Below are positions 1-11,374 of a stretch of 13,338 nucleotides of DNA, one piece after another (the stretch's first letter is position 1; each line of letters starts with the position of its first letter). A program made the translations under genes and the position numbers. Source of the stretch: Solirubrobacterales bacterium 70-9. Its GTDB lineage: Bacteria; Actinomycetota; Thermoleophilia; Solirubrobacterales; 70-9. The notes under the pieces are model-generated. The model saw nothing but the letters and a program-made list of their open reading frames with translations. It was not told the DNA's origin and ran no database searches. Where the stretch lies: contig MKSH01000035.1 of NCBI GenBank assembly GCA_001898095.1, positions 44,937-58,274 of the forward strand, given 5' to 3'.

Positions 1-587
1 TGGCGCGGCCTGCGACCGCGGTCACGGTGAGCGCGGTGACGCTCTCCTGGATGCCGCGTGACTCCTGGGTCCGCTACGTCTCCTCCGGCACCGCGGCCAA
101 CGACGGCGTCGTCGCCGGGGCCGGTGCGACCGGCGTCGCCTCGATGACCTCGCCCTGCCCCGACCGTCCGGCCGAAGCGGGCATCGCGCTCAACTACACG
201 ATCAATTTCGGTGCCAAGGAAAGCTGGTACGACCCGCTCAGCGGCGAGGCCGGCATCTACGGCAGCGGCAACGTCGCCTTCCGCTACACCGCCCACACGA
301 TCAACCTGACCGCCGCCGAACCGGAGATCGAGATCAACGGCTCCTCCTCGCGGGCGATCTTCCGCTTCAACGGCAGCGGCGGGACGCCTTACCCGAACCA
401 GCGGGTGGCGCTGGAGACGCTGGAAACGGCGGGGCGGCCGACCGTCTCGAACGAAGGCAAGACGCTCACCTACAACCTGATGCGCGGGCGCCTCACCAGC
501 GACGGCGAAAAGGTCTTCGCCGGCTTCTACACGGCGCCCAGCGACAATGAATTCGGGTGCGTCTCGGCATCCTTCACGCTGCCATGA
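1..587 (+). CDS. HtaA-like haem-binding domain protein (5' end outside window)
   Basis: The frame is open from the left edge, so the gene is cut off; the first complete codon is at 3 and the interrupted codon before it reads ?TG. The visible part looks like a single HtaA domain, the surface haem-binding module known from corynebacterial haem uptake. Numbering from the GTG at 27, it begins LSWMPRDSWVRYV (6-18), has GSGNVAFRYTAHTI (80-92) and ends with FAGFY (164-168). Tyr17, His90 and Tyr168 sit where HtaA domains carry their conserved Tyr/His/Tyr haem-associated residues. Cys44 and Cys178 could form a disulphide. No sortase motif or C-terminal membrane segment follows, so any signal peptide or anchor must lie upstream, unseen. 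The stop overlaps the next start as ATGA, which implies co-translation with the DUF2470 gene. The family call rests on pattern recognition. A generic beta-sandwich surface protein is the alternative. Confidence 0.68.
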   Translation, partial: ARPATAVTVSAVTLSWMPRDSWVRYVSSGTAANDGVVAGAGATGVASMTSPCPDRPAEAGIALNYTINFGAKESWYDPLSGEAGIYGSGNVAFRYTAHTINLTAAEPEIEINGSSSRAIFRFNGSGGTPYPNQRVALETLETAGRPTVSNEGKTLTYNLMRGRLTSDGEKVFAGFYTAPSDNEFGCVSASFTLP

Positions 588-956: not shown

Positions 957-1025
957 CGCTCAAAATTCTGTGTGTTTAGTTTTGGTTCCACAGCAACTGA
1001 AACTCGACACACACATTCTTGAGCG
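957..1025. repeat. A+T-rich 69-nt imperfect palindrome
   Basis: Two 33-nt arms (957-989 and 993-1025) are complementary around a 3-nt centre. By hand I count 25 Watson-Crick pairs, 3 G-T wobbles and 5 mismatches; the outer seven pairs (CGCTCAA/TTGAGCG) and an inner TGTGTGT/ACACACA block are perfect. Of the 60 bases 961-1020 only 23 are G or C, in a window near 70% G+C. No T-run follows on either strand, so it is not a textbook intrinsic terminator. It sits between the DUF2470 stop and the helicase leader. It could be a small non-autonomous mobile element remnant, a REP-type palindrome, or a structured boundary element. Confidence 0.6.
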
Positions 1026-1134
1026 ATCGGATGCGCGCTGGAATGGGGTCGGGGAGGGAAGTTCGGTACCGTGGAGAAGTCGGGTTGGCCCCACGGCCGC
1101 CCGAGAGAACCCGTTTCCTCCACGTGCACAGGCA

Positions 1135-1162
1135 CTTCCGGGGCTGCTGGATCTCCCCGAAG
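1135..1162 (+). promoter_or_regulatory. Hairpin in helicase leader, just upstream of the Shine-Dalgarno
   Basis: CTTC-C-GGGG (1135-1143) can pair with CCCC-GAAG (1155-1162), giving eight base pairs with one bulged C and an 11-nt loop. It ends 11 nt before the AAGGAG at 1174, so it could affect ribosome access. An alternative pairing of ACTTC (1134-1138) with GAAGT (1162-1166) is also possible. Short G/C hairpins arise easily by chance at this base composition, so a regulatory role is only a suggestion. Confidence 0.3.
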
Positions 1163-1173
1163 AAGTCCAATTC

Positions 1174-1179
1174 AAGGAG
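1174..1179 (+). promoter_or_regulatory. Shine-Dalgarno AAGGAG placing the helicase start at ATA 1187
   Basis: AAGGAG is a near-perfect anti-16S match with 7 nt to the ATA at 1187-1189. No ATG, GTG or TTG in any frame lies at a suitable distance, and the next in-frame GTG codons (1223, 1226) have no comparable site. This decides the start of the DEAD-box helicase. Confidence 0.6.
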
Positions 1180-1186
1180 CACTGAC

Positions 1187-2509
1187 ATAGCTACGTTCGC
1201 CGACCTCGGCACCTCCAGGTCGGTGGTGGACGCGCTGCGCGCGCGGTCGATCACCGAGCCGTTCCCCGTACAAGAGATGGTCATCAGCGATGCGCTCGAT
1301 GGCCACGATCTGCTCGTCCAGTCGCCGACCGGCTCGGGCAAGACGCTCGCCTTCGGCGTGCCGCTCGTCGATGTCCTCGAGCCCGGCGCCTGGGGCCCGC
1401 AGGCGCTGATCCTGGCGCCGACGCGCGAGCTCGCCTCGCAGATCGTCGACGAGCTCGAAGTCCTCGCCAAGGCACAGGGGCTGCGCGTCGCCGCGGTCTA
1501 CGGCGGCGTCGGCTTCGGTCCTCAGATCGCCGCCGCGAAGAAGGCGGACATCCTCGTCGCCACCCCCGGCCGACTCGAGGACCTGATCGCCCGCGGCGCC
1601 GTCGCCCTCGACCAGGTCCAGGTGCTCGTCCTCGACGAGGCCGACCGGATGCTCGACATGGGCTTCCGCCCCGCCGTCGACCGGATCGTCGGGCTGACCC
1701 CGGACGATCGCCAGACCCTCTTTTTCTCCGCCACGCTCGAGGGCGCGGTCGGCAAGGTCGCCCGCGACTACACCCACAAGGCGCGGTCCCACACCCACAC
1801 CCCGCCGGAGACCGCCGCCGCCGACATCGAGCACAAGTTCCTCCACGTCGAGTCGCAGGGCGCCAAGCTCGACCAGCTGGTCGCCTCGCTGGCGGCGGAG
1901 GAGCCGGGCCGCTCGCTCGTCTTCGTCCGCACCAAGCGCGGCGCCGACCGGCTGGTGAAGCGGCTGCGCGGCAAAGACGTCGAGGCGGTCGCCATGCACG
2001 GCGACAAAAGCCAGCGCCAGCGTGAAAACGCGCTCGCCCGCTTCGAGCGCGGCGAGGTGATGACGCTGGTCGCGACCGACGTCGCCGCCCGCGGGATCGA
2101 CGTCCCCGACGTGGTCCGGGTGTTCAACTACGACGCCCCCGAGGACCGCGCCGCCTACGTCCACCGGATCGGCCGCACCGGCCGCGCCGGGCGGACCGGC
2201 ACCGGGATCAGCTTCGTCCTCGCCGACGAGGTGAAGGAGATGCGGCAGATCGCGAAGGCCCTGGGCCTCGAGTTCGCACCGCAGACCGGGACCGCGACGG
2301 CCAAGCCGCGAACCGAGGGGCCGAAGCCGCAGAAGCCGGCGCTGAAGCCGGGCAACGCGGAGTCGAGCCGCCCGCGCAAGGGCCACGGCAAACCGCGCCA
2401 CTCCGGCGAGAAGCGCCACGCCCCGGCGAAAGAGGCCCGCGTCACCGACGGCCCGCGCCGCAAACGGCGTCGGCGTCGCAGGCGCAACCCCGCGGCGACC
2501 GCCGGCTAG
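1187..2509 (+). CDS. DEAD-box ATP-dependent RNA helicase (RhlE-like), probable ATA start
   Basis: A cytoplasmic RNA-remodelling ATPase of about 440 aa with both RecA-like domains complete. Counting ATA as residue 1: the Q motif has the upstream aromatic F4 and PFPVQ (25-29), motif I is TGSGKT (48-53), Ia PTRELA (78-83), Ib TPGR (126-129), II DEAD (150-153), III SAT (181-183), V ATDVAARGID (296-305) and VI HRIGRTGR (326-333). A Lys/Arg-rich, low-complexity tail from about 364 ends in a run of eight arginines and probably binds RNA, as in RhlE/CsdA-type enzymes. The frame stays open upstream to a TTG at 1019, but those 56 codons use A/T-ending and rare Arg codons and read unlike protein, so I treat them as leader. 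Starting at the first GTG downstream would delete F4 of the Q motif. The gene is probably monocistronic, ending at a hairpin. Substrate and RhlE subtype cannot be read from sequence alone. Confidence 0.92.
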   Translation: MATFADLGTSRSVVDALRARSITEPFPVQEMVISDALDGHDLLVQSPTGSGKTLAFGVPLVDVLEPGAWGPQALILAPTRELASQIVDELEVLAKAQGLRVAAVYGGVGFGPQIAAAKKADILVATPGRLEDLIARGAVALDQVQVLVLDEADRMLDMGFRPAVDRIVGLTPDDRQTLFFSATLEGAVGKVARDYTHKARSHTHTPPETAAADIEHKFLHVESQGAKLDQLVASLAAEEPGRSLVFVRTKRGADRLVKRLRGKDVEAVAMHGDKSQRQRENALARFERGEVMTLVATDVAARGIDVPDVVRVFNYDAPEDRAAYVHRIGRTGRAGRTGTGISFVLADEVKEMRQIAKALGLEFAPQTGTATAKPRTEGPKPQKPALKPGNAESSRPRKGHGKPRHSGEKRHAPAKEARVTDGPRRKRRRRRRRNPAATAG

Positions 2510-3569: not shown

Positions 3570-3585
3570 GCCGCTTCCTCGCGGC
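3570..3585. terminator. Short hairpin between convergent genes
   Basis: GCCGC (3570-3574) and GCGGC (3581-3585) form a five-pair G/C stem with a six-base loop in the 16-nt gap between the two convergent stop codons. A pyrimidine-rich stretch (TACTTCTTCT) follows on the plus strand. It is weak, and a chance hairpin is possible, but its position fits a shared terminator. Confidence 0.35.
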
Positions 3586-5468
3586 TACTTCTTCTGCGTC
3601 TGCTTCGGGGCCGGAGCCGGGCGCGAGGCGAACCGCTCGGCGGCTACCTGGGCCAGGCCGGGGATCTTCAGTGAGCCCCAGCCGCTGGCGACGTCATAGC
3701 CGACGCCCGCCGAGAAGTACCCGAGCGGCGCCCCGCCGCCCGCGTCCACCGGGGTCATCGTGCCGAGGTCGTTGTTACCTCGGGTGACGTCGAGGAGGAC
3801 GTTCCGTGCGGCGGCGACACCCGACTTGGCTTCCCGGCCCACTTCGTAGACCAGCGGGTTCAGGAACCCGAGTGGCGGCGCTCCGCGCTTGGCCAGGTAG
3901 CCGTCGGCGAGGAGCACTCCGCCCGCGTAGAGCGGCGTCGCGGCGCTGGTGCCGCCGACGGTCTGCCAGCCGCCTTCCGGCTGTTCGGCGGATTTGCAGA
4001 TCTCCGCGGTGCAGTAGATCGCGTAGCCGGGGAGCAGGTCGGCGAGGCCCGCGACGTCGGGGACGATCCGGCCGTCGCCGTATTTGGAGACGAGGCCACG
4101 CTGCCACCAGGGGCGCGGCGTGGTGAGGATGCTGAGGGCACCGCCACCGGCGCCGAAGGCGATCGGCGAGTCGTTCCAGACCATCTCCTGCTTGATCTGG
4201 TTGGCCTTGGTGAGTTCGACGTTGGTGCCGCCGACGGCGGTCACGTACGGGGAGGAGGCCGGCTCGCTGGCACTCACCAGCGGCAGCGCGTTCGCCCCTT
4301 TTTCGTTTTCGATTTTGCAGCCGCTCGAGCCGACGTCGCCGGCGGCGACGAGGACCGAGATGCCGGAGGCGTCGGCGACCGCGAACACTTCGTTCAGCGT
4401 GTCGCGAAAGGCGATCTGGCCGCCCAGCTCGGCCTCGCACTGACCGAGCGAGATCGAGATCGCGTCCGGGTGATGGCCCTTCGTGCCGAGCGCGGCCGCC
4501 ACCGTGTCGAGGAGCTTGGACTCGGAGGAGCCGCCCTCGTAGACGTAGATGTGTTCGGCCTTCGGCACGGTTGCGGTCAGCACCTCGAGGTCGAGCGTCG
4601 TCTCGTCTCCCGGGGCCAGCGGTTTGGGGATGCCGACGGGACGCACGCGAAGGTTCGGGGCGGGCAACCCGAAGCACTTGGCGAACGTTTCGATGTCGGA
4701 GCGGCGGAAGCCGTCGGTCTCGATCACCGCGATGTCTTTGCCCTGGCCCTTGAAGCCCTGCTTGTGCAGGGTCGCGTGGCCGAAGGCGGTGAGGTACTGG
4801 TTCGGCGTGTAGCCGTTCAACTTGTCCTGGTAGGCGCCGGTCTGCCGGCCGGCGGCGCAGCCTTCGGTGGTGCCGCTGTTGAGGACGATCGAGGTGCCTT
4901 TCAGCCCCGGCTCCTGGCCGAGGTGTTGGCCCGCGACGGTCTGGGCAGTGCCCTCGAAGACGCCTTCTTCGGTCCCGATCAGGCCGATCGCGGAGACCTT
5001 GCCGCGCAGCGGGGCGGGGACTCGGCGGGCGTCTGAAAGCGAGCCACTCGACGAAGCCGTGGCTCCGGTCGCGGGGAGTGCCCGGCGCGCCACGGAGGTG
5101 GGGATGTGCGCGGTGACGTAGGTGCCGGTGGCGCCGAGTCGGCCGGTCGCGCCGTGCTCGTGCAGCCACAGCATCGTCGCCTTGGTGTCGGCGGGCGAGG
5201 CGCCGAACCTGCGGACGACCTGCTCGACCGTGAGGTATTCGCGGTACTGGGGCGACTGGGGGTCGGAGACGGCGCGTACGAGCTTGGCCAGGCCCCGCGG
5301 GTGCTTCAGCTGCAGGAGGAAGGTCAGCTCGCCGGGCTTCTGGTTCTGGGACTTGCCGGCGGCGGCGGTCGCGCTCAGGCCCAGGGAAGCGAGGGCGAGG
5401 ACGGCGAGCGCCAGGACGAGGCGGGGGAGATCGGACTTGCGTCGGCTCGAACGCGGGTGGTGGTGCAT
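3585..5468 (-). CDS. S53 family serine-carboxyl peptidase (sedolisin/kumamolisin-like), secreted proenzyme
   Basis: An extracellular endopeptidase precursor of 627 aa counted from the ATG at 5468. It has basic residues at 6-11, a hydrophobic signal core at about 17-33 and an Ala-rich cleavage region near 36-38. A pro-kumamolisin activation domain follows (about 46-160; note SPQYREYLTVEQVVRRFGAS). The catalytic domain runs from about 200 to the end. The acid-serine set is intact: E289 and D293 in ETTLD, oxyanion Asp378 in AAGDVGSSG, nucleophile Ser508 in GGTSAATP. A DVTRGNN stretch and GVGYDVASGWG near the C-terminus match the family's calcium-site region. Sedolisins usually act at acidic pH. 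The frame extends upstream to 5543, but the 5468 start is preferred because GAGGAG precedes it and the signal peptide follows directly. The gene is divergent from the transporter at 5561 and stands alone. Confidence 0.92.
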   Translation of the reverse strand: MHHHPRSSRRKSDLPRLVLALAVLALASLGLSATAAAGKSQNQKPGELTFLLQLKHPRGLAKLVRAVSDPQSPQYREYLTVEQVVRRFGASPADTKATMLWLHEHGATGRLGATGTYVTAHIPTSVARRALPATGATASSSGSLSDARRVPAPLRGKVSAIGLIGTEEGVFEGTAQTVAGQHLGQEPGLKGTSIVLNSGTTEGCAAGRQTGAYQDKLNGYTPNQYLTAFGHATLHKQGFKGQGKDIAVIETDGFRRSDIETFAKCFGLPAPNLRVRPVGIPKPLAPGDETTLDLEVLTATVPKAEHIYVYEGGSSESKLLDTVAAALGTKGHHPDAISISLGQCEAELGGQIAFRDTLNEVFAVADASGISVLVAAGDVGSSGCKIENEKGANALPLVSASEPASSPYVTAVGGTNVELTKANQIKQEMVWNDSPIAFGAGGGALSILTTPRPWWQRGLVSKYGDGRIVPDVAGLADLLPGYAIYCTAEICKSAEQPEGGWQTVGGTSAATPLYAGGVLLADGYLAKRGAPPLGFLNPLVYEVGREAKSGVAAARNVLLDVTRGNNDLGTMTPVDAGGGAPLGYFSAGVGYDVASGWGSLKIPGLAQVAAERFASRPAPAPKQTQKK

Positions 5469-5471
5469 CTG

Positions 5472-5477
5472 CTCCTC
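5472..5477 (-). promoter_or_regulatory. Shine-Dalgarno GAGGAG of the S53 peptidase
   Basis: On the minus strand GAGGAG lies three bases before the ATG at 5468. The spacing is short, but neither upstream in-frame candidate start (5504, 5543) has any purine-rich site, so this favours the 5468 start with the signal peptide at the N-terminus. Confidence 0.5.
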
Positions 5478-5546
5478 GGGTGACTGGGGGACGGAACCCC
5501 TCATATCGGCAGAATCGACCTCAAACCTGAGCCTCGGTCTCACGCT

Positions 5547-5560: not shown

Positions 5561-6442
5561 ATGGACATCGCCCTCGCCCTCGTCGCGGCGCTGCTGTTCG
5601 CGCTCGGCACCGTCCTTCAGCAGCGCGCCGGCCTCGAAGCCCCGGTCGAGGGGCCGAGCTCCGGCCTGCTCGTGCAGATGGCGAGACGGCCGGTCTGGCT
5701 GATCGGGATCCTCGCCGACGCCTTCGGCTTCGTCGCCCAGGCGGCGGCGCTCGGCTTCGGCCGGCTCGCCGTGGTCCAGCCGCTGCTCGTCTCCAGCGTC
5801 GTCTTCGCCCTGCCGCTCGGCGTGCGGTTGACCGGCCAGAAGGTGCGCCGGATCGACATCGGTGCCGCCTTCCTCGTCACCGCCGCGCTGGTCGCCTTCC
5901 TCACCTTCGCCAATCCCTCGGGCGGGCGCGCCGACGCGCCGCTCGGGGATTGGCTGATAACGATCGGCGCCTGCCTGGCGGTCTGCGCGCCGCTGGTGAT
6001 CGGCGGCCGGACCGGACCGGCGCCCCGCCGCGCGGCGATGCTGGGAATCGCCACCGGCGTCCTCTTCGCGCTCTCCGCGGCGCTCACGAAGGCCGTGGTC
6101 GACGAGCTCGACGACGGCATCTTCACGATCTTCACCACCTGGCACCTCTACGGGCTGGCGGTGATCGGCTACGCCTCGATGACCCTGAACCAGATGGCGC
6201 TGAACACCGGCGCGCTGGCGCCGGCGGTGGCGACCAGCATGGCCTTCGACCCGATCACCAGCGTCGTCCTCGGCGTGGTCCTGCTGGACGAGTCGCTGAA
6301 CGTCGGGGCGATCGACATCGTCGTCTCGATCTTGGCTCTGGCGGCGGCCGGAGCGGGGATGGCGGTGCTCGCGCGACAGCAGTCCGGGCTCACGTCGGGT
6401 CCCGGACCTGCCGAAAAGGAACCCGAGGTCTCGCCCGCCTGA
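5561..6442 (+). CDS. DMT-superfamily membrane transporter (EamA/NIPA-like)
   Basis: A 293-aa inner-membrane protein with about nine hydrophobic helices. The first is at the extreme N-terminus, with the motif ALGTVLQQRAGLEAP at its end. Helices near PVWLIGILADAFGFVAQAAA and VVQPLLVSSVVFALPLGV follow the drug/metabolite-transporter layout, and a second half beginning LGIATGVLFALSAALTKAVV looks like the internal repeat. The C-terminus is a short hydrophilic tail. NIPA-type members have been linked to magnesium and other EamA members to amino acids or metabolites; substrate cannot be assigned here. It is the first gene of a tight same-strand series, with 20 nt to the lysyl-tRNA synthetase fusion and no terminator between, so co-transcription is likely. 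The start has no Shine-Dalgarno and may be leaderless. Confidence 0.82.
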   Translation: MDIALALVAALLFALGTVLQQRAGLEAPVEGPSSGLLVQMARRPVWLIGILADAFGFVAQAAALGFGRLAVVQPLLVSSVVFALPLGVRLTGQKVRRIDIGAAFLVTAALVAFLTFANPSGGRADAPLGDWLITIGACLAVCAPLVIGGRTGPAPRRAAMLGIATGVLFALSAALTKAVVDELDDGIFTIFTTWHLYGLAVIGYASMTLNQMALNTGALAPAVATSMAFDPITSVVLGVVLLDESLNVGAIDIVVSILALAAAGAGMAVLARQQSGLTSGPGPAEKEPEVSPA

Positions 6443-6462
6443 GGCGGTGACCCTGCCCTTTT

Positions 6463-9400
6463 ATGGCCGCCCCCGACGAGACGAAAACCGACGCCCCGGA
6501 GACCCCGCCCGAGTCCGCGCAGACCGCGCGCGAGTTCCAGGAGGAGACGCGCGCCCACCGGCTGGCGAAGCTCGACGCGCTGCGCGCCCGTGGCATCGAG
6601 CCCTACCCGGTCCGCTTCGATCGCGACACGACCGCGGCGGCGATCCGGGCCGAGTTCGACGCGATCGCGGCGGGGACCGACACCGGCAAGGTCGTCCACC
6701 TCGCCGGCCGGGTGATGGGGGAGCGCCGCCACGGCGGCCTCGACTTCGCCGACCTCCAGGACGAGACCGGCAAGCTGCAGCTGATCGTCACCCGCGGCGA
6801 GGTCGGCGGCGAGGGCCTGCACGACTTCTCCGACCTCGACCTCGGCGACTGGATCGGCGTCGAGGGCACCGTCGTCGCCTCCGACAAGGGCGAGCTTTCG
6901 GTCCGGGTCGACAAGTTCGAGCTGCTCTCGAAGAGCCTCCGCGCGCTTCCCGACATCCGCCACGGGGTCACCGACGCGGAGACCCGCTACCGCAGGCGCT
7001 ATCTGGACCTGATCCTCGACGAGCCCTCGCGGCGGGTCTTCCAGATCCGCTCGGCGGTGATTTCGGCGACGCGCCGGACGCTGCTCGACAAGGGCTTCCG
7101 CGAAGTCGAGACGCCGGTCCTGCTCGACCAGGCGGGCGGCGCCGCGGCGAAACCGTTCATCACCCACCACAACGCGCTCGACATCGACATGACGCTGCGG
7201 ATCGCGCTCGAGCTGAACCTGAAGCGGTTGATCGTCGGCGGCATGAACCGCGTCTTCGAGATCGGCCGCGTCTTCCGCAACGAGGGCGTCGACACCCGCC
7301 ACAACCCGGAGTTCACGCTGCTGGAGGCCTACCAGGCCTTCGGCGACTACGAGGACATGATGGACCTGACCGAGGCGATCGTCGAGGCCTGCTGCATCGA
7401 GGCGATCGGCACCACGGTGGTGACGATCAACGGCAAGGAGGTCGACCTGAAGCCGCCGTGGCGGCGGGCGACGATGGCCGAGCTGATCGAGGAGAACGCC
7501 GCCGCGAAGATGCACCCGTCGATGCCGGTCGCCGAGGCGCGGAAGATCGCCGACGAACGCGGGGTCGAGTACCTCGACGTCTGGGGCTCGGGCAAAATCA
7601 TGGCCGAGGTCTACGACGACTCCTCCGAGCACCTGCTGGTCGAACCCACCTTCGTCCTCGACCACCCGCGCGAAGTCTCCCCGCTCGCCCGCGCCCACCG
7701 CGACGATCCAACGCTGACGGAGAGGTTCGAGTTGGTGGTCGCAGGTCGAGAGCTGGCGAACGCCTACTCCGAGCTGAACGACCCGGTCGACCAGGCCGAA
7801 CGCTTCCAGAAAGAGGCCGACCTGCAGGCCGGCGGCGACGAAGAGGGCGAACCGGTCGACAACAGCTATGTCGAAGCGCTCGAGTACGGCCTTCCTCCCA
7901 CGGGTGGCCTCGGCATCGGCCTCGACCGTCTGGTGATGCTGATCTCGGGCGCCGAGGCGATCCGCGACGTGATCTTGTTCCCGACCCTTCGCCCCGAGGC
8001 CGGCGACGGGGGCGATGGCTCCGCTCCCGTCGCCTCCGAGGGCGCCCCGACCGCCGCGGATTTTGCCGCGCCAGGCGAGGATGCGGGGAGGTCCCCCGAA
8101 CGACATCAGCACGAGGAGCTGGACGCGCCCGGCGCCAGCCCGCTCTCGGCCGAGCGACGAGCTGCCAGTGAGGGGGACCTCCCCGCGGCGTCGCCCGTCT
8201 CCCGCCGTCCCAAGCATCTGCGCTGGATCTCCTGGTCCGCGGTGTTGGTGGCGATCTTCTCGCTCTTGCCGACGGCCACCTCGATCCGCTTCTCGCTTGG
8301 GCACTTCTCCTTCGTGCATGGAGACGACCGCTCCGCGGGGCTGATCATCTCCGTGGCGATCGGCATCGGGATCCTCGGCATCGCCCGTGGTCTCAGCCGC
8401 GGCAAGCGGCGGGCCTGGGGCGTCGGGGTCGTACTCTTCGCCCTCGCTGCCTTGGTCCACCTGTTCCGCGGCCCCGATCCGGTCGCCGTCGTCCTCTCGG
8501 CCGCGATGCTCTTCGCGCTGATCTGGTTCCGCGACGACTTCCGTGCGCACTCGGACCCAGGCTCGCTCCAGCAGGCGGCGATCTTCGTGCCCGTCTACCT
8601 GCTGTTCGTCTTCCTCTTCACCTCGATCACGCTCTTTGCCGAGCGGAAACACATCACCCCCGACCTGACCTTCTGGGGCAACGTCCAGACCGAGTTCAAG
8701 GGACTGGTCGGGTTCGCGGGCCCCTACACGTACGAGCACAAGGTCTTCCATGACTTCTTCGAAACCGCGCTCCTCGTGCTCGGGATCCTCGGGCTCTTCA
8801 CCCTCCTCTACCTCGTCTTCCGCACCTTCGTCCAGGCCGATCCGCCGACGCCGGAGCGGCGCGAGCGGGCGGTGGAGATCGTGCGGCGGTGGGGGGACGA
8901 CACGCTCGACTACTTCGCCCTGCGGCGCGACAAGAACTACTTCTTCGCCGCCGACGGCGAATCGCTGATCGCCTACCTGTACGTGCGGGGAACGGCGATG
9001 GTGGCCGCCGATCCGATCGGGCCGCCCGGCAACGAGGCGCGGACGCTCGATGAATTCCTCACCTACTGCGCCGAGCGCGGCTGGCGGGTCGCCTTCTTCG
9101 CCGTGCGCGAGGCCGACGCGCCGCTCTACCGCGAACGCGGCATGCACCCGATCTACCTCGGCGACGAGGCGATCCTGCGGCTCGACACGTTCACCCTCGA
9201 CGGGGCCGAGCGCAAGGCCGTGCGCGCCGCCGTGAAACACGTCGAGAAGGACCATACCTTCGAGCTGATCGCCGAGAACGAGGCGGCGCCGGAGCTGGTC
9301 GCCGAGCTGAACGAGATCTCCGAGGAGTGGCGCAAAGGGGCTCCCGAGCGCGGCTTCACGATGGAGCTCGGCGAGGACGTCGAGGGGAAGAACCCCGACT

Positions 9401-9891
9401 TCGTCCTCGCGATCGCCCGCGACCGCACCAGCGAGCGGGTCGAAGGCTTCCTCCGCTTCGTCCCCGTCTACGGCGACGAACCGGGCTACTCGCTCGACCT
9501 GATGCGGCGTCGCCCGACCTCCGCCAACGGGATGACCGAGTTCCTCATCGCCCGCGCCGCGCAGGCGCTCGGGGCGCGCGGCTTCAAGCGCCTCTCGCTG
9601 AACTTCGCCGCCTGGGGGCGGCTGCTCGATTCGGCCGAGGACGCAGGCCTCTCCGGCCGCCTGCAGCGGCTGATGGCGAAAGGCCTGAACCCGTTCTTCC
9701 AGATCCAGAGCCTGAGGGACTTCAACCAGAAGTTCGGCCCCGAATGGGTGCCGCGCTCGGTGGTGATCGATGACGCCTCCGACCTGCCGCGGATCGCGAT
9801 GCTCTACGCCGGGGTCGAGGGGTTCCTCGAGGTGCCGGTGCTGAACAAGGTGCTCGAGCCACCGATCCGCCAGCGGGTCGAGGCGCCCTGA
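6463..9891 (+). CDS. lysS: Lysyl-tRNA synthetase / lysyl-phosphatidylglycerol synthase fusion (LysRS-MprF, reversed LysX order)
   Basis: A 1142-aa membrane-bound bifunctional protein. Residues 1-512 are a complete class II lysyl-tRNA synthetase: OB-fold anticodon domain (about 76-157), motif 1 region with GFREVETPVL (211-220), motif 2 FRNEGVDTRHNPEFT (271-285), ELANAYSELNDP, and motif 3 GGLGIGLDRLVML (481-493), ending FPTLRPE. Residues 513-586 are an acidic, Ala/Pro-rich linker. Six membrane helices follow (about 588-608, 624-644, 650-668, 672-689, 705-726, 765-786), then a cytoplasmic DUF2156 transferase domain (about 800-1125) with YFALRRDKNYFF, ADPIGP, SLDLMRRRP and LSLNFAAW. An even helix number puts both catalytic ends in the cytoplasm. 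Expected chemistry: charge tRNA-Lys, then pass lysine to phosphatidylglycerol, lowering envelope charge and raising resistance to cationic peptides. Mycobacterial LysX has the transferase first; here the order is reversed. The frame is continuous, without a frameshift. The TGA stop overlaps the next gene's GAGG. Confidence 0.93.
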   Translation: MAAPDETKTDAPETPPESAQTAREFQEETRAHRLAKLDALRARGIEPYPVRFDRDTTAAAIRAEFDAIAAGTDTGKVVHLAGRVMGERRHGGLDFADLQDETGKLQLIVTRGEVGGEGLHDFSDLDLGDWIGVEGTVVASDKGELSVRVDKFELLSKSLRALPDIRHGVTDAETRYRRRYLDLILDEPSRRVFQIRSAVISATRRTLLDKGFREVETPVLLDQAGGAAAKPFITHHNALDIDMTLRIALELNLKRLIVGGMNRVFEIGRVFRNEGVDTRHNPEFTLLEAYQAFGDYEDMMDLTEAIVEACCIEAIGTTVVTINGKEVDLKPPWRRATMAELIEENAAAKMHPSMPVAEARKIADERGVEYLDVWGSGKIMAEVYDDSSEHLLVEPTFVLDHPREVSPLARAHRDDPTLTERFELVVAGRELANAYSELNDPVDQAERFQKEADLQAGGDEEGEPVDNSYVEALEYGLPPTGGLGIGLDRLVMLISGAEAIRDVILFPTLRPEAGDGGDGSAPVASEGAPTAADFAAPGEDAGRSPERHQHEELDAPGASPLSAERRAASEGDLPAASPVSRRPKHLRWISWSAVLVAIFSLLPTATSIRFSLGHFSFVHGDDRSAGLIISVAIGIGILGIARGLSRGKRRAWGVGVVLFALAALVHLFRGPDPVAVVLSAAMLFALIWFRDDFRAHSDPGSLQQAAIFVPVYLLFVFLFTSITLFAERKHITPDLTFWGNVQTEFKGLVGFAGPYTYEHKVFHDFFETALLVLGILGLFTLLYLVFRTFVQADPPTPERRERAVEIVRRWGDDTLDYFALRRDKNYFFAADGESLIAYLYVRGTAMVAADPIGPPGNEARTLDEFLTYCAERGWRVAFFAVREADAPLYRERGMHPIYLGDEAILRLDTFTLDGAERKAVRAAVKHVEKDHTFELIAENEAAPELVAELNEISEEWRKGAPERGFTMELGEDVEGKNPDFVLAIARDRTSERVEGFLRFVPVYGDEPGYSLDLMRRRPTSANGMTEFLIARAAQALGARGFKRLSLNFAAWGRLLDSAEDAGLSGRLQRLMAKGLNPFFQIQSLRDFNQKFGPEWVPRSVVIDDASDLPRIAMLYAGVEGFLEVPVLNKVLEPPIRQRVEAP
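8083..8186. repeat. Perfect 15-bp inverted repeat inside the LysRS-MprF linker
   Basis: GCGGGGAGGTCCCCC (8083-8097) is exactly inverted as GGGGGACCTCCCCGC (8172-8186), enclosing 74 nt. The 104-nt unit falls entirely within the interdomain linker codons. Each arm is itself nearly palindromic (GGGG-AGGT-CCCC), so each can also fold alone. The spacer contains the 10-bp palindrome CTCGGCCGAG and has more A/T-ending codons than the flanking domains. I see no target-site duplication. It may be a remnant of the former intergenic region or of a small insertion, or an mRNA structure acting between the two halves. Confidence 0.6.
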
Positions 9892-9898
9892 GGCACCG

Positions 9899-11374
9899 AT
9901 GAGCGCCGCGGGCCGCCACGGCGGCGACCTCGACGCGATCCTGGCGACCGCGGCAGCGGACCGCAAACGCCTGAACTCGAACGCGCTCGGCGCCTTCAGC
10001 CTCACCCTGCTCGGGGTGGCGAGCGTGGTCGGCGCCGGGATCTTCGTCGTCACCGGCGACGCCGCCGCCAACTACGCCGGCCCGGCGGTGCTGATCAGCT
10101 TCGTCCTCGCCGGCATCGTCGCCGGGCTGACCGCGCTCTGTTACGCGGAGCTTGCCGCCTCGATCCCGGTCGCCGGCTCGACCTACTCCTACGCCCTCGC
10201 CGCCTTCGGCTCCTTCGTCGGCTGGTTCATCGGCTGGGACCTGCTGCTCGAGTACCTCTTCGCCGCCTCGACCGTCGCCGTCGGCTGGTCCGGCTACCTG
10301 GTCAGCCTCTGCGCCTCGGTCGGGATCCACATCCCGCATGACCTCGCCGCGGCGCCGTTCGGCTCCGACCCTGGGATCGTCAACCTGCCGGCCCTGGCGG
10401 TCATGCTGATCTGCTCCGGGGCGCTCTACCTCGGCACCAAGGAGTCGGCGATCGCCAACAACACGATGGTGGCGCTGAAGCTGGCGATCCTGGCCCTGGT
10501 CGTCGGGGTCGGGATCTTCTACATCAGCTCGACCAACCTGCAGCCCTTCCTACCGGCGGCCGAAGCCGGGTTCGGGCACTTCGGCTGGAGCGGCGTGCTG
10601 CGCGGCGCCGGGATCGTCTTCTTCGCCTACATCGGCTTCGACGCGGTCTCCACCGCCGCGGCCGAGGCGCGCGAACCGCGGCGGACGATCCCGATCGGGC
10701 TGATCGGCACGGTCCTGATCGCGACCGCGATCTACGTCGCCGTCGGCTTCGTCCTCACCGGGATGCTGAACTACACCCACCTCGGCGTCGCCGACCCGGT
10801 GGCCGCCGCCGTGCAGGCCGCCGGCCCGAGCCTCGATTGGCTGCTGCGGCTGACCGACATCGCTGCCGTGATCGGCCTCGCCTCGACCGTGCTCGTCACC
10901 CTCTACGGGCAGACGCGGATCTTCATGCGCATGTCCGAGGACGGGATGCTGCCGCCCGCCTTCGGCAAGGTCGGGCAGAAGACGAAAACCCCCGGCTTCT
11001 CGATCGTGCTGTGCGGGATCGTCGGCGGCACGGTCGCGGCGCTGGTGCCGCTCTCGGTGCTCGGCGAACTGATCTCGATCGGCACCCTGCTCGCCTTCAT
11101 CATCGTCTCCTGCGGGGTGGTGCGGCTGCGGCGGCGCTACCCGGATCTGGAGCGTCCGTTCAAGGTGCCGGCGCTGCCGCTGGTCGCCGCCGCGGCGATC
11201 CTCTCCTCGATCGCGCTGATGGCGACGCTGCCGGGCGCGACCTGGATCCGGCTCGCGGTCTGGGCTCTGCTCGGCTTCGCCGTCTACTTCCTCTACGCCC
11301 GCGACAACAGCGCCCGCAAGCTGCGCGAACACGCCGAGGCGCCGGGGCCGTCCCCGGCCGAGGTCGGGCTGTGA
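9899..11374 (+). CDS. APC-family amino-acid permease, CAT type (YfnA-like)
   Basis: A 491-aa cytoplasmic-membrane transporter with about 12 helices. The first helix carries the unwound-helix motif SVVGAGIFVVTG (42-53, GAGIF at 45-49). CYAELAASIPVAGSTYSY (81-98) and GWDLLLEY (112-119) followed by VAVGWSGY are strongly typical of the cationic amino-acid transporter (CAT/YfnA) branch of the APC superfamily. Bacterial members of this branch move various amino acids, so lysine or arginine uptake is an inference that the neighbour supports rather than the sequence proving it. The ATG at 9899 has GAGG at 9890-9893 overlapping the TGA of the LysRS-MprF gene, and its own TGA is overlapped by the next GTG; both imply translational coupling. 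A likely role is supplying lysine for tRNA charging and membrane-lipid modification. Confidence 0.88.
   Translation: MSAAGRHGGDLDAILATAAADRKRLNSNALGAFSLTLLGVASVVGAGIFVVTGDAAANYAGPAVLISFVLAGIVAGLTALCYAELAASIPVAGSTYSYALAAFGSFVGWFIGWDLLLEYLFAASTVAVGWSGYLVSLCASVGIHIPHDLAAAPFGSDPGIVNLPALAVMLICSGALYLGTKESAIANNTMVALKLAILALVVGVGIFYISSTNLQPFLPAAEAGFGHFGWSGVLRGAGIVFFAYIGFDAVSTAAAEAREPRRTIPIGLIGTVLIATAIYVAVGFVLTGMLNYTHLGVADPVAAAVQAAGPSLDWLLRLTDIAAVIGLASTVLVTLYGQTRIFMRMSEDGMLPPAFGKVGQKTKTPGFSIVLCGIVGGTVAALVPLSVLGELISIGTLLAFIIVSCGVVRLRRRYPDLERPFKVPALPLVAAAAILSSIALMATLPGATWIRLAVWALLGFAVYFLYARDNSARKLREHAEAPGPSPAEVGL

Follow-up and report, generated by a model that had tools for sequence, protein, structure and literature searches.

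The closest described counterpart of the protein analysed here is LysX, in which an MprF-like half is N-terminal and a lysyl-tRNA synthetase (LysRS) C-terminal in the same chain. In M. smegmatis, LysX can be dispensed with and LysS is the essential enzyme (PMC4721953), and the LysX of Corynebacterium pseudotuberculosis and of two mycobacteria makes lysyl-diacylglycerol (PMC10580965). Iyer and colleagues noted both actinomycete MprF-LysRS fusions and fungal fusions in which an AspRS comes first (PMC2922099); the fungal ErdS charges tRNA and aminoacylates a lipid (PMC9437257). No description of a bacterial fusion with LysRS first was found in the literature searched, which covered few subscription papers and some sources only in part, so that absence from print is not established. 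A gene of this kind lies in a 13,338-nucleotide stretch of Solirubrobacterales bacterium 70-9 (contig MKSH01000035.1, positions 44,937 to 58,274), referred to below as the window. The fusion it encodes is a real, widespread and separately evolved counterpart of LysX. Judged from its sequence, it is probably a membrane-tethered, bifunctional LysRS and lipid lysyltransferase, with a neighbouring DMT_1 transporter as a possible flippase.

Architecture and distribution of the fusion

The initial annotation described one uninterrupted frame with a LysRS, a linker, six membrane helices and a DUF2156 domain (the name used in PMC5898192 for PF09924, LPG_synthase_C), and the open reading frame, the Pfam matches and the hydrophobicity profile all agree with it (Table 1). 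The LysRS half scores 571.3 bits against the bacterial lysS model TIGR00499 (lysS_bact; cut-off 427.6) and can be aligned to solved LysRS structures; the best LysRS model gives 648.9 bits with the window protein, against 151.8 bits for the best AspRS model. Residues E250, E288, Y290, N433, Y435 and E437, presumably the lysine-pocket residues known from E. coli LysU, show no variation across 29 of 29 aligned rows (the window and 28 loci). The same holds in the transferase for W956, R957, E962, R963, G964, F965, D1012, N1047 and F1048, among others. The linker between the half-profiles measures 16-113 residues in 29 fusions (median 61; 77 in the window protein). Six hydrophobic segments within residues 594-786, with loop charges consistent with both termini inside, lead to a prediction that both catalytic halves are cytoplasmic, as had been proposed.

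In the AlphaFold model, six long helices lie within residues 585-787, and the linker reads as disordered, with a predicted local distance difference test score (pLDDT) below 50 at residues 505-529 and 535-577. The GNAT part is good; the centre of the LysRS is modelled poorly (pLDDT below 50 at residues 213-293), and for this reason no inter-domain contact is read from the model, whose mean pLDDT of 71.2 and predicted template modelling score (pTM) of 0.49 make domain placement unreliable. The C-terminal half matches the folds of MprF-type structures (7f47, 7duw, 6lvf and 4v36), and PDB 4v36 is also matched outside the fold comparison. In the two best fold rows, 7f47 and 7duw, the model from residue 269 on is paired with the chain from residue 94 or 98 on, at a root mean square deviation near 9, and these alignments were left aside in placing the flippase part. 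The window protein has six helices only and no match to PF03706 (flippase subdomain 1) at E up to 1; the helical region is taken to correspond to MprF subdomain 2, with flippase subdomain 1 absent (PMC8131360). An antisense frame of 1300 residues (6169-10071, minus strand) is open across the whole gene, has no Pfam match and is taken as a high-GC shadow frame.

An alignment scan of named GTDB genomes with the C-terminal half returned 34 loci from Solirubrobacterales, Conexibacter, Solirubrobacter, metagenome-assembled genomes (MAGs) of Thermoleophilia and Acidimicrobiia, Pseudonocardia, Modestobacter and Geodermatophilus. Both halves lie in a single frame with LysRS first in 29 of them, which correspond to 28 strains (L069 and L070 are two records of one strain, CPCC 204708). 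Another locus, L066, has its start cut off and still has LysRS first, giving 30 of 34; the other four (L038, L041, L051 and L053) hold the C-terminal half alone at a contig start and are uninformative as to order. None of the 34 has MprF first, and the order opposite to mycobacterial LysX claimed for the window protein recurs in its relatives. Within the class, a fusion-grade C-terminal half (E below 1e-160) occurs in 27 of 399 genomes, that of the window included; 24 of these halves lie in open frames of at least 946 residues, the remaining three on broken contigs. In a phylum sample of 396 genomes, weighted towards the window's kin, the fusion is found in five and an MprF-first protein above the LysX cut-off in 29.

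A trivial explanation would be that sequencing or assembly merged two neighbouring genes, and an adjacent pair in another genome (G707, discussed below) shows that such genes can be neighbours. This is scarcely credible in the face of the same single frame in 29 loci, or 28 without the duplicate strain, cultured strains among them. An artefact is ruled out, and the two doubts raised at the outset, a sequencing-induced fusion and an architecture missing from relatives, both fell away.

Two kinds of record stand somewhat apart. L055, titled Bifidobacterium breve, carries the fusion, corresponds to G129, a genome from the order to which the window belongs, and is probably a mislabelled MAG. L178, L180, L182 and similar loci have an MprF-like transferase at the C-terminal end of frames of ~1000 residues with a different N-terminal part; the only Pfam matches in L178 are to the membrane region and the transferase.

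Ancestry relative to LysX

The independence of the fusion is shown by trees and not by domain order alone. The trees sampled 33 fusions at first and then, in the careful versions, 20, with near-duplicates dropped. The LysRS halves of LysX cluster with LysS of families f35, f60, f61 and f20 (100/100) and its MprF halves with standalone MprF of f30 (100/100), whereas the halves of the fusion form a group apart from LysX (100/99 for LysRS, 100/100 for MprF). The fusion groups also include an unfused LysRS (G429), an unfused MprF (G532) and the G707 pair. In approximately unbiased tests, a single clade of fusion and LysX was rejected under naive constraints (p 9.6e-91 for the LysRS half, 1.8e-80 for the MprF half) and again with intruding rows allowed (p 8.2e-6 for the LysRS half and a weaker 0.012 for the MprF half). 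With one clade rejected for both halves, the trees place the origin of the fusion apart from that of LysX; an independent event had been the view of the initial annotation, and the shared ancestral order it set against that view is not what the trees recover.

The same tests bear on the idea of a LysX with its halves swapped, in which a single ancestral LysRS-MprF fusion was later permuted or re-shuffled. Such a protein would have the same domains and the same number of helices, as the fusion does, and the fusion passes the curated LysX model NF002821 (852.5 bits against a cut-off of 742, in two stretches). With both halves outside LysX, a permuted LysX is nevertheless very unlikely. Since the cut-off is passed whatever the domain order, the class can hide under the name LysX. 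The tRNA-synt_2_TM model (PF16995) has no match in the fusion at E up to 1, and a fusion of LysX order in G196 is also below its cut-off (17.0 against 26.8 bits).

This G196 protein, from the same class (L192:7963-11319), has MprF first, is the only class II LysRS over the cut-off in a 98% complete genome and has a DMT_1 neighbour. A tree with its LysRS half within LysX is rejected (p 0.0027); its MprF half stands next to LysX in the tree (99/93), with its placement unsure. It may be a third separate fusion.

The LysRS-first order plausibly arose by fusion of adjacent lysS and mprF genes. In G707, from another family of the phylum, a LysRS and an MprF, both kin of the fusion halves, are separate neighbours in the same order, 33 nt apart (L194:8490-11897), which hints at how the order could have come about, though the pair may be a later split. 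Two results count against a simple account of this origin. In both trees the G707 genes nest among the fusions, and the fused LysRS may be sister to the class's own LysS, a relation that the test fails to reject when the G707 and G429 rows are allowed (p 0.205); an earlier, stricter form gave p 0.001 with a constraint that excluded these kin rows. The nesting led to G707 being dropped as a proven ancestor; one fusion with the G707 pair outside it is not rejected (p 0.081 and 0.18 in two tests).

Additional or sole lysyl-tRNA synthetase

If the fusion were the only LysRS of its genome, all lysine charging would be membrane-tethered, as the initial annotation pointed out. This does not apply to the window genome, where the fusion is an additional, probably dedicated LysRS beside a canonical lysS (contig C133) and a partial third LysRS (C262); it may apply to some relatives. 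The third LysRS is represented by pieces at contig edges (G000:C262:3-881 and C67:6952-7257), the former 52% identical to the canonical lysS, and the guess is that they are one gene.

Another class II LysRS over the cut-off is present in 20 of the 27 fusion genomes and absent in seven (G007, G029, G038, G050, G388, G399 and G364), and a class I LysRS over the cut-off was found in none of these seven but G388. The genomes of 19 named loci comprise 12 with another class II LysRS, six MAGs with the fusion alone and one that is fragmentary. The six are G388, G007, G029, G038 and two Acidimicrobiia MAGs; the class I search covered the first four.

The canonical gene has a fixed place, coaX-dus-greA-lysS-clpC, in six of six comparison genomes (G000, G090, G015, G063, G392 and G023). 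The greA-clpC slot is without lysS in all four readable sole-LysRS genomes (G007, G038, G050 and G388), of which the first three are assemblies of genus g3, with the slot empty in 3/3. The gap contains no lysS remnant and no N (best E 1.0); in G007, a genome 97% complete on five contigs, a GNAT acetyltransferase gene (PF00583) occupies it, and G038 and G050 have similar DNA there. The slot is unreadable in G029, G364, G196 and G758, where clpC is near a contig end, and in G399, with weaker Clp matches only. Gene content and order are good evidence for loss of lysS in genus g3, and in a few uncultured relatives the fusion may be the only lysine-charging enzyme.

A bolder reading is that in part of the clade the fusion replaced lysS, the tethered enzyme supplying all ribosomal Lys-tRNA, with a dedicated DMT_1 lysyl-lipid flippase at its side. 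This appears doubtful, and an already tentative estimate was lowered on two grounds: a further class II LysRS is retained by 12 of 12 cultured isolates checked, and every named genome with the fusion as apparent sole LysRS is a metagenome assembly. Further points tell against it: completeness is 72% for G399 and 64% for G364, a class I LysRS is encoded in G388 (G388:C95:34371-35408; PF01921, 328.7 bits), and the contig of G050 lacks the LysRS half of the fusion itself. If it were true, translation and membrane charge would both depend on a single tethered supply of Lys-tRNA, joined to a competing consumer. Lineages that seem to have retained the fusion while losing lysS would offer a natural test of whether ribosomes and lipids can both be served by one tethered synthetase.

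The apparent sole-LysRS genomes would also suit a device of localisation, with a LysRS half working for translation and an MprF half that is dead or a mere membrane anchor, much as the CAAD-ValRS of Anabaena is a sole, membrane-confined synthetase (PMC4893482). The invariance of many transferase residues in 29 of 29 rows and the other class II LysRS kept in 20 of 27 genomes make this improbable.

As a separate observation, three genomes of family f23 (G425, G453 and G482) match the LysX/LysRS model weakly only (E ~1e-27), a pattern expected if they had no class II LysRS.

Neighbours, proposed function and known systems

The gene directly upstream of the fusion belongs to the DMT_1 family (Table 1). 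In each of the 15 fusion genomes searched (15 of the 27), a DMT_1 over the cut-off is found no more than ~3 kb from the fusion; it is nearly single-copy, with two extra copies elsewhere (G029 and G034). Flanks contain it in 28 of 32 fusion loci, 0 of 20 LysX loci and 1 of 20 standalone MprF loci (73 bits); it is also found beside the G196 fusion (1/1) but not beside the G707 pair (0/1), and copies elsewhere in the genome number two more in G196 and G707's single one. In many loci the gene precedes the fusion on the same strand; in others, for example those of Pseudonocardia endophytica, Modestobacter and Solirubrobacter, it follows the fusion on the opposite strand, so the linkage has survived rearrangement. 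DMT_1 is thus a candidate partner, putatively a lysyl-lipid flippase or exporter, and its recurrence singles it out as a specific protein that could carry out translocation in enzymes that lack the MprF flippase subdomain.

Several points weaken the case for this partnership. The fetched flanks of L043, L061, L063 and L068 have no DMT_1, and the G707 pair is unlinked from it. The flank profile was built from fusion-linked DMT proteins and favours fusion loci, the loci are related and their counts not independent, and some of the control flanks are short. Homologues of the PF03706-type flippase are encoded at other sites in 16 of 16 genomes; a DMT flippase is therefore not required, other routes being possible, and DMT_1 as the sole possible flippase was not upheld. 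On the other side of the fusion is an amino acid permease, which has a strong homologue close to the fusion in several related loci.

Table 1. The fusion gene, its parts and the other genes of the window
Feature	Position (nt)	Strand	Details
LysRS-MprF fusion gene	6463..9891	+	ATG start; 1142 aa; single frame without internal stop
LysRS OB-fold anticodon-binding domain	6694..6927	+	residues 78-155; PF01336, tRNA_anti-codon (Pfam)
Class II LysRS catalytic domain	6976..7989	+	residues 172-509; PF00152, tRNA-synt_2, E 1.3e-84
Ala/Pro/Gly/Ser low-complexity linker	7999..8211	+	residues 513-583
Membrane region, six helices	8242..8820	+	residues 594-786
Tandem-GNAT lipid lysyltransferase domain	8878..9765	+	residues 806-1101; PF09924, LPG_synthase_C, E 3.6e-72
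DMT_1 family membrane transporter	5561..6442	+	NF038012; 20 nt upstream of fusion, same strand
Amino acid permease (AA_permease_2)	9899..11374	+	7 nt downstream of fusion
HtaA-domain protein	27-587	+	
DEAD-box helicase	1019-2509	+	
Kumamolisin-like protease	3585-5543	-	

In the proposed mechanism, the N-terminal class II LysRS would charge tRNA-Lys while the flexible linker keeps it beside the six-helix anchor and the tandem-GNAT transferase, which would couple charging to lipid modification by passing lysine from Lys-tRNA to phosphatidylglycerol or diacylglycerol. Translocation of the lysyl-lipid, for which the protein lacks MprF's flippase subdomain, may then fall to the DMT_1 transporter, and in relatives apparently without lysS the fusion would have to supply translation too. 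Phosphatidylglycerol is not to be assumed as the acceptor, because LysX of Corynebacterium and of two mycobacteria makes lysyl-diacylglycerol. That product is a version of the bifunctional mechanism, compatible with it, and deserves a little less than even credence; the window protein is outside the LysX clade, so the product of LysX is not transferable to it. Weighing against the proposed account are the occurrence of the fusion in 1 of 12 genomes of the window's own genus, an assembly contamination of 5.66%, a tetranucleotide agreement between contigs C35 and C133 (r 0.89) not far above between-genus values, which reach 0.85, and a search that found no activity, lipid or localisation data for any fusion member.

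Set beside LysX, the fusion likewise holds a class II LysRS, a six-helix membrane part (PMC10580965) and LPG_synthase_C in one chain, and tRNA-dependent transfer of lysine to a lipid is expected. It differs in the reversed order of the halves, both of which derive from other lineages, and in its DMT_1 neighbour, no DMT_1-like frame being present in the flanks of 20 of 20 LysX loci. LysX is also the dispensable partner of an essential LysS in M. smegmatis (PMC4721953), whereas some relatives with the fusion are seemingly without lysS. With MprF it shares helices read as subdomain 2 and a tandem-GNAT synthase of the type seen in 7f47, 7duw, 6lvf and 4v36; unlike MprF, it has no detected flippase subdomain 1 (no PF03706) and carries its own LysRS. 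The fungal AspRS-DUF2156 protein ErdS, compared here through its published description, has the same plan of an N-terminal synthetase and a C-terminal MprF-like transferase (PMC2922099), but with AspRS, ergosterol and a eukaryotic host. The CAAD-anchored ValRS of Anabaena resembles it as a sole aminoacyl-tRNA synthetase confined to membranes (PMC4893482), with the difference that the anchor is a CAAD domain without a transferase. LysRS and lipid lysyltransferase have thus been joined at least twice in bacteria, in opposite orders, which suggests that membrane tethering of the charging step is itself selected.

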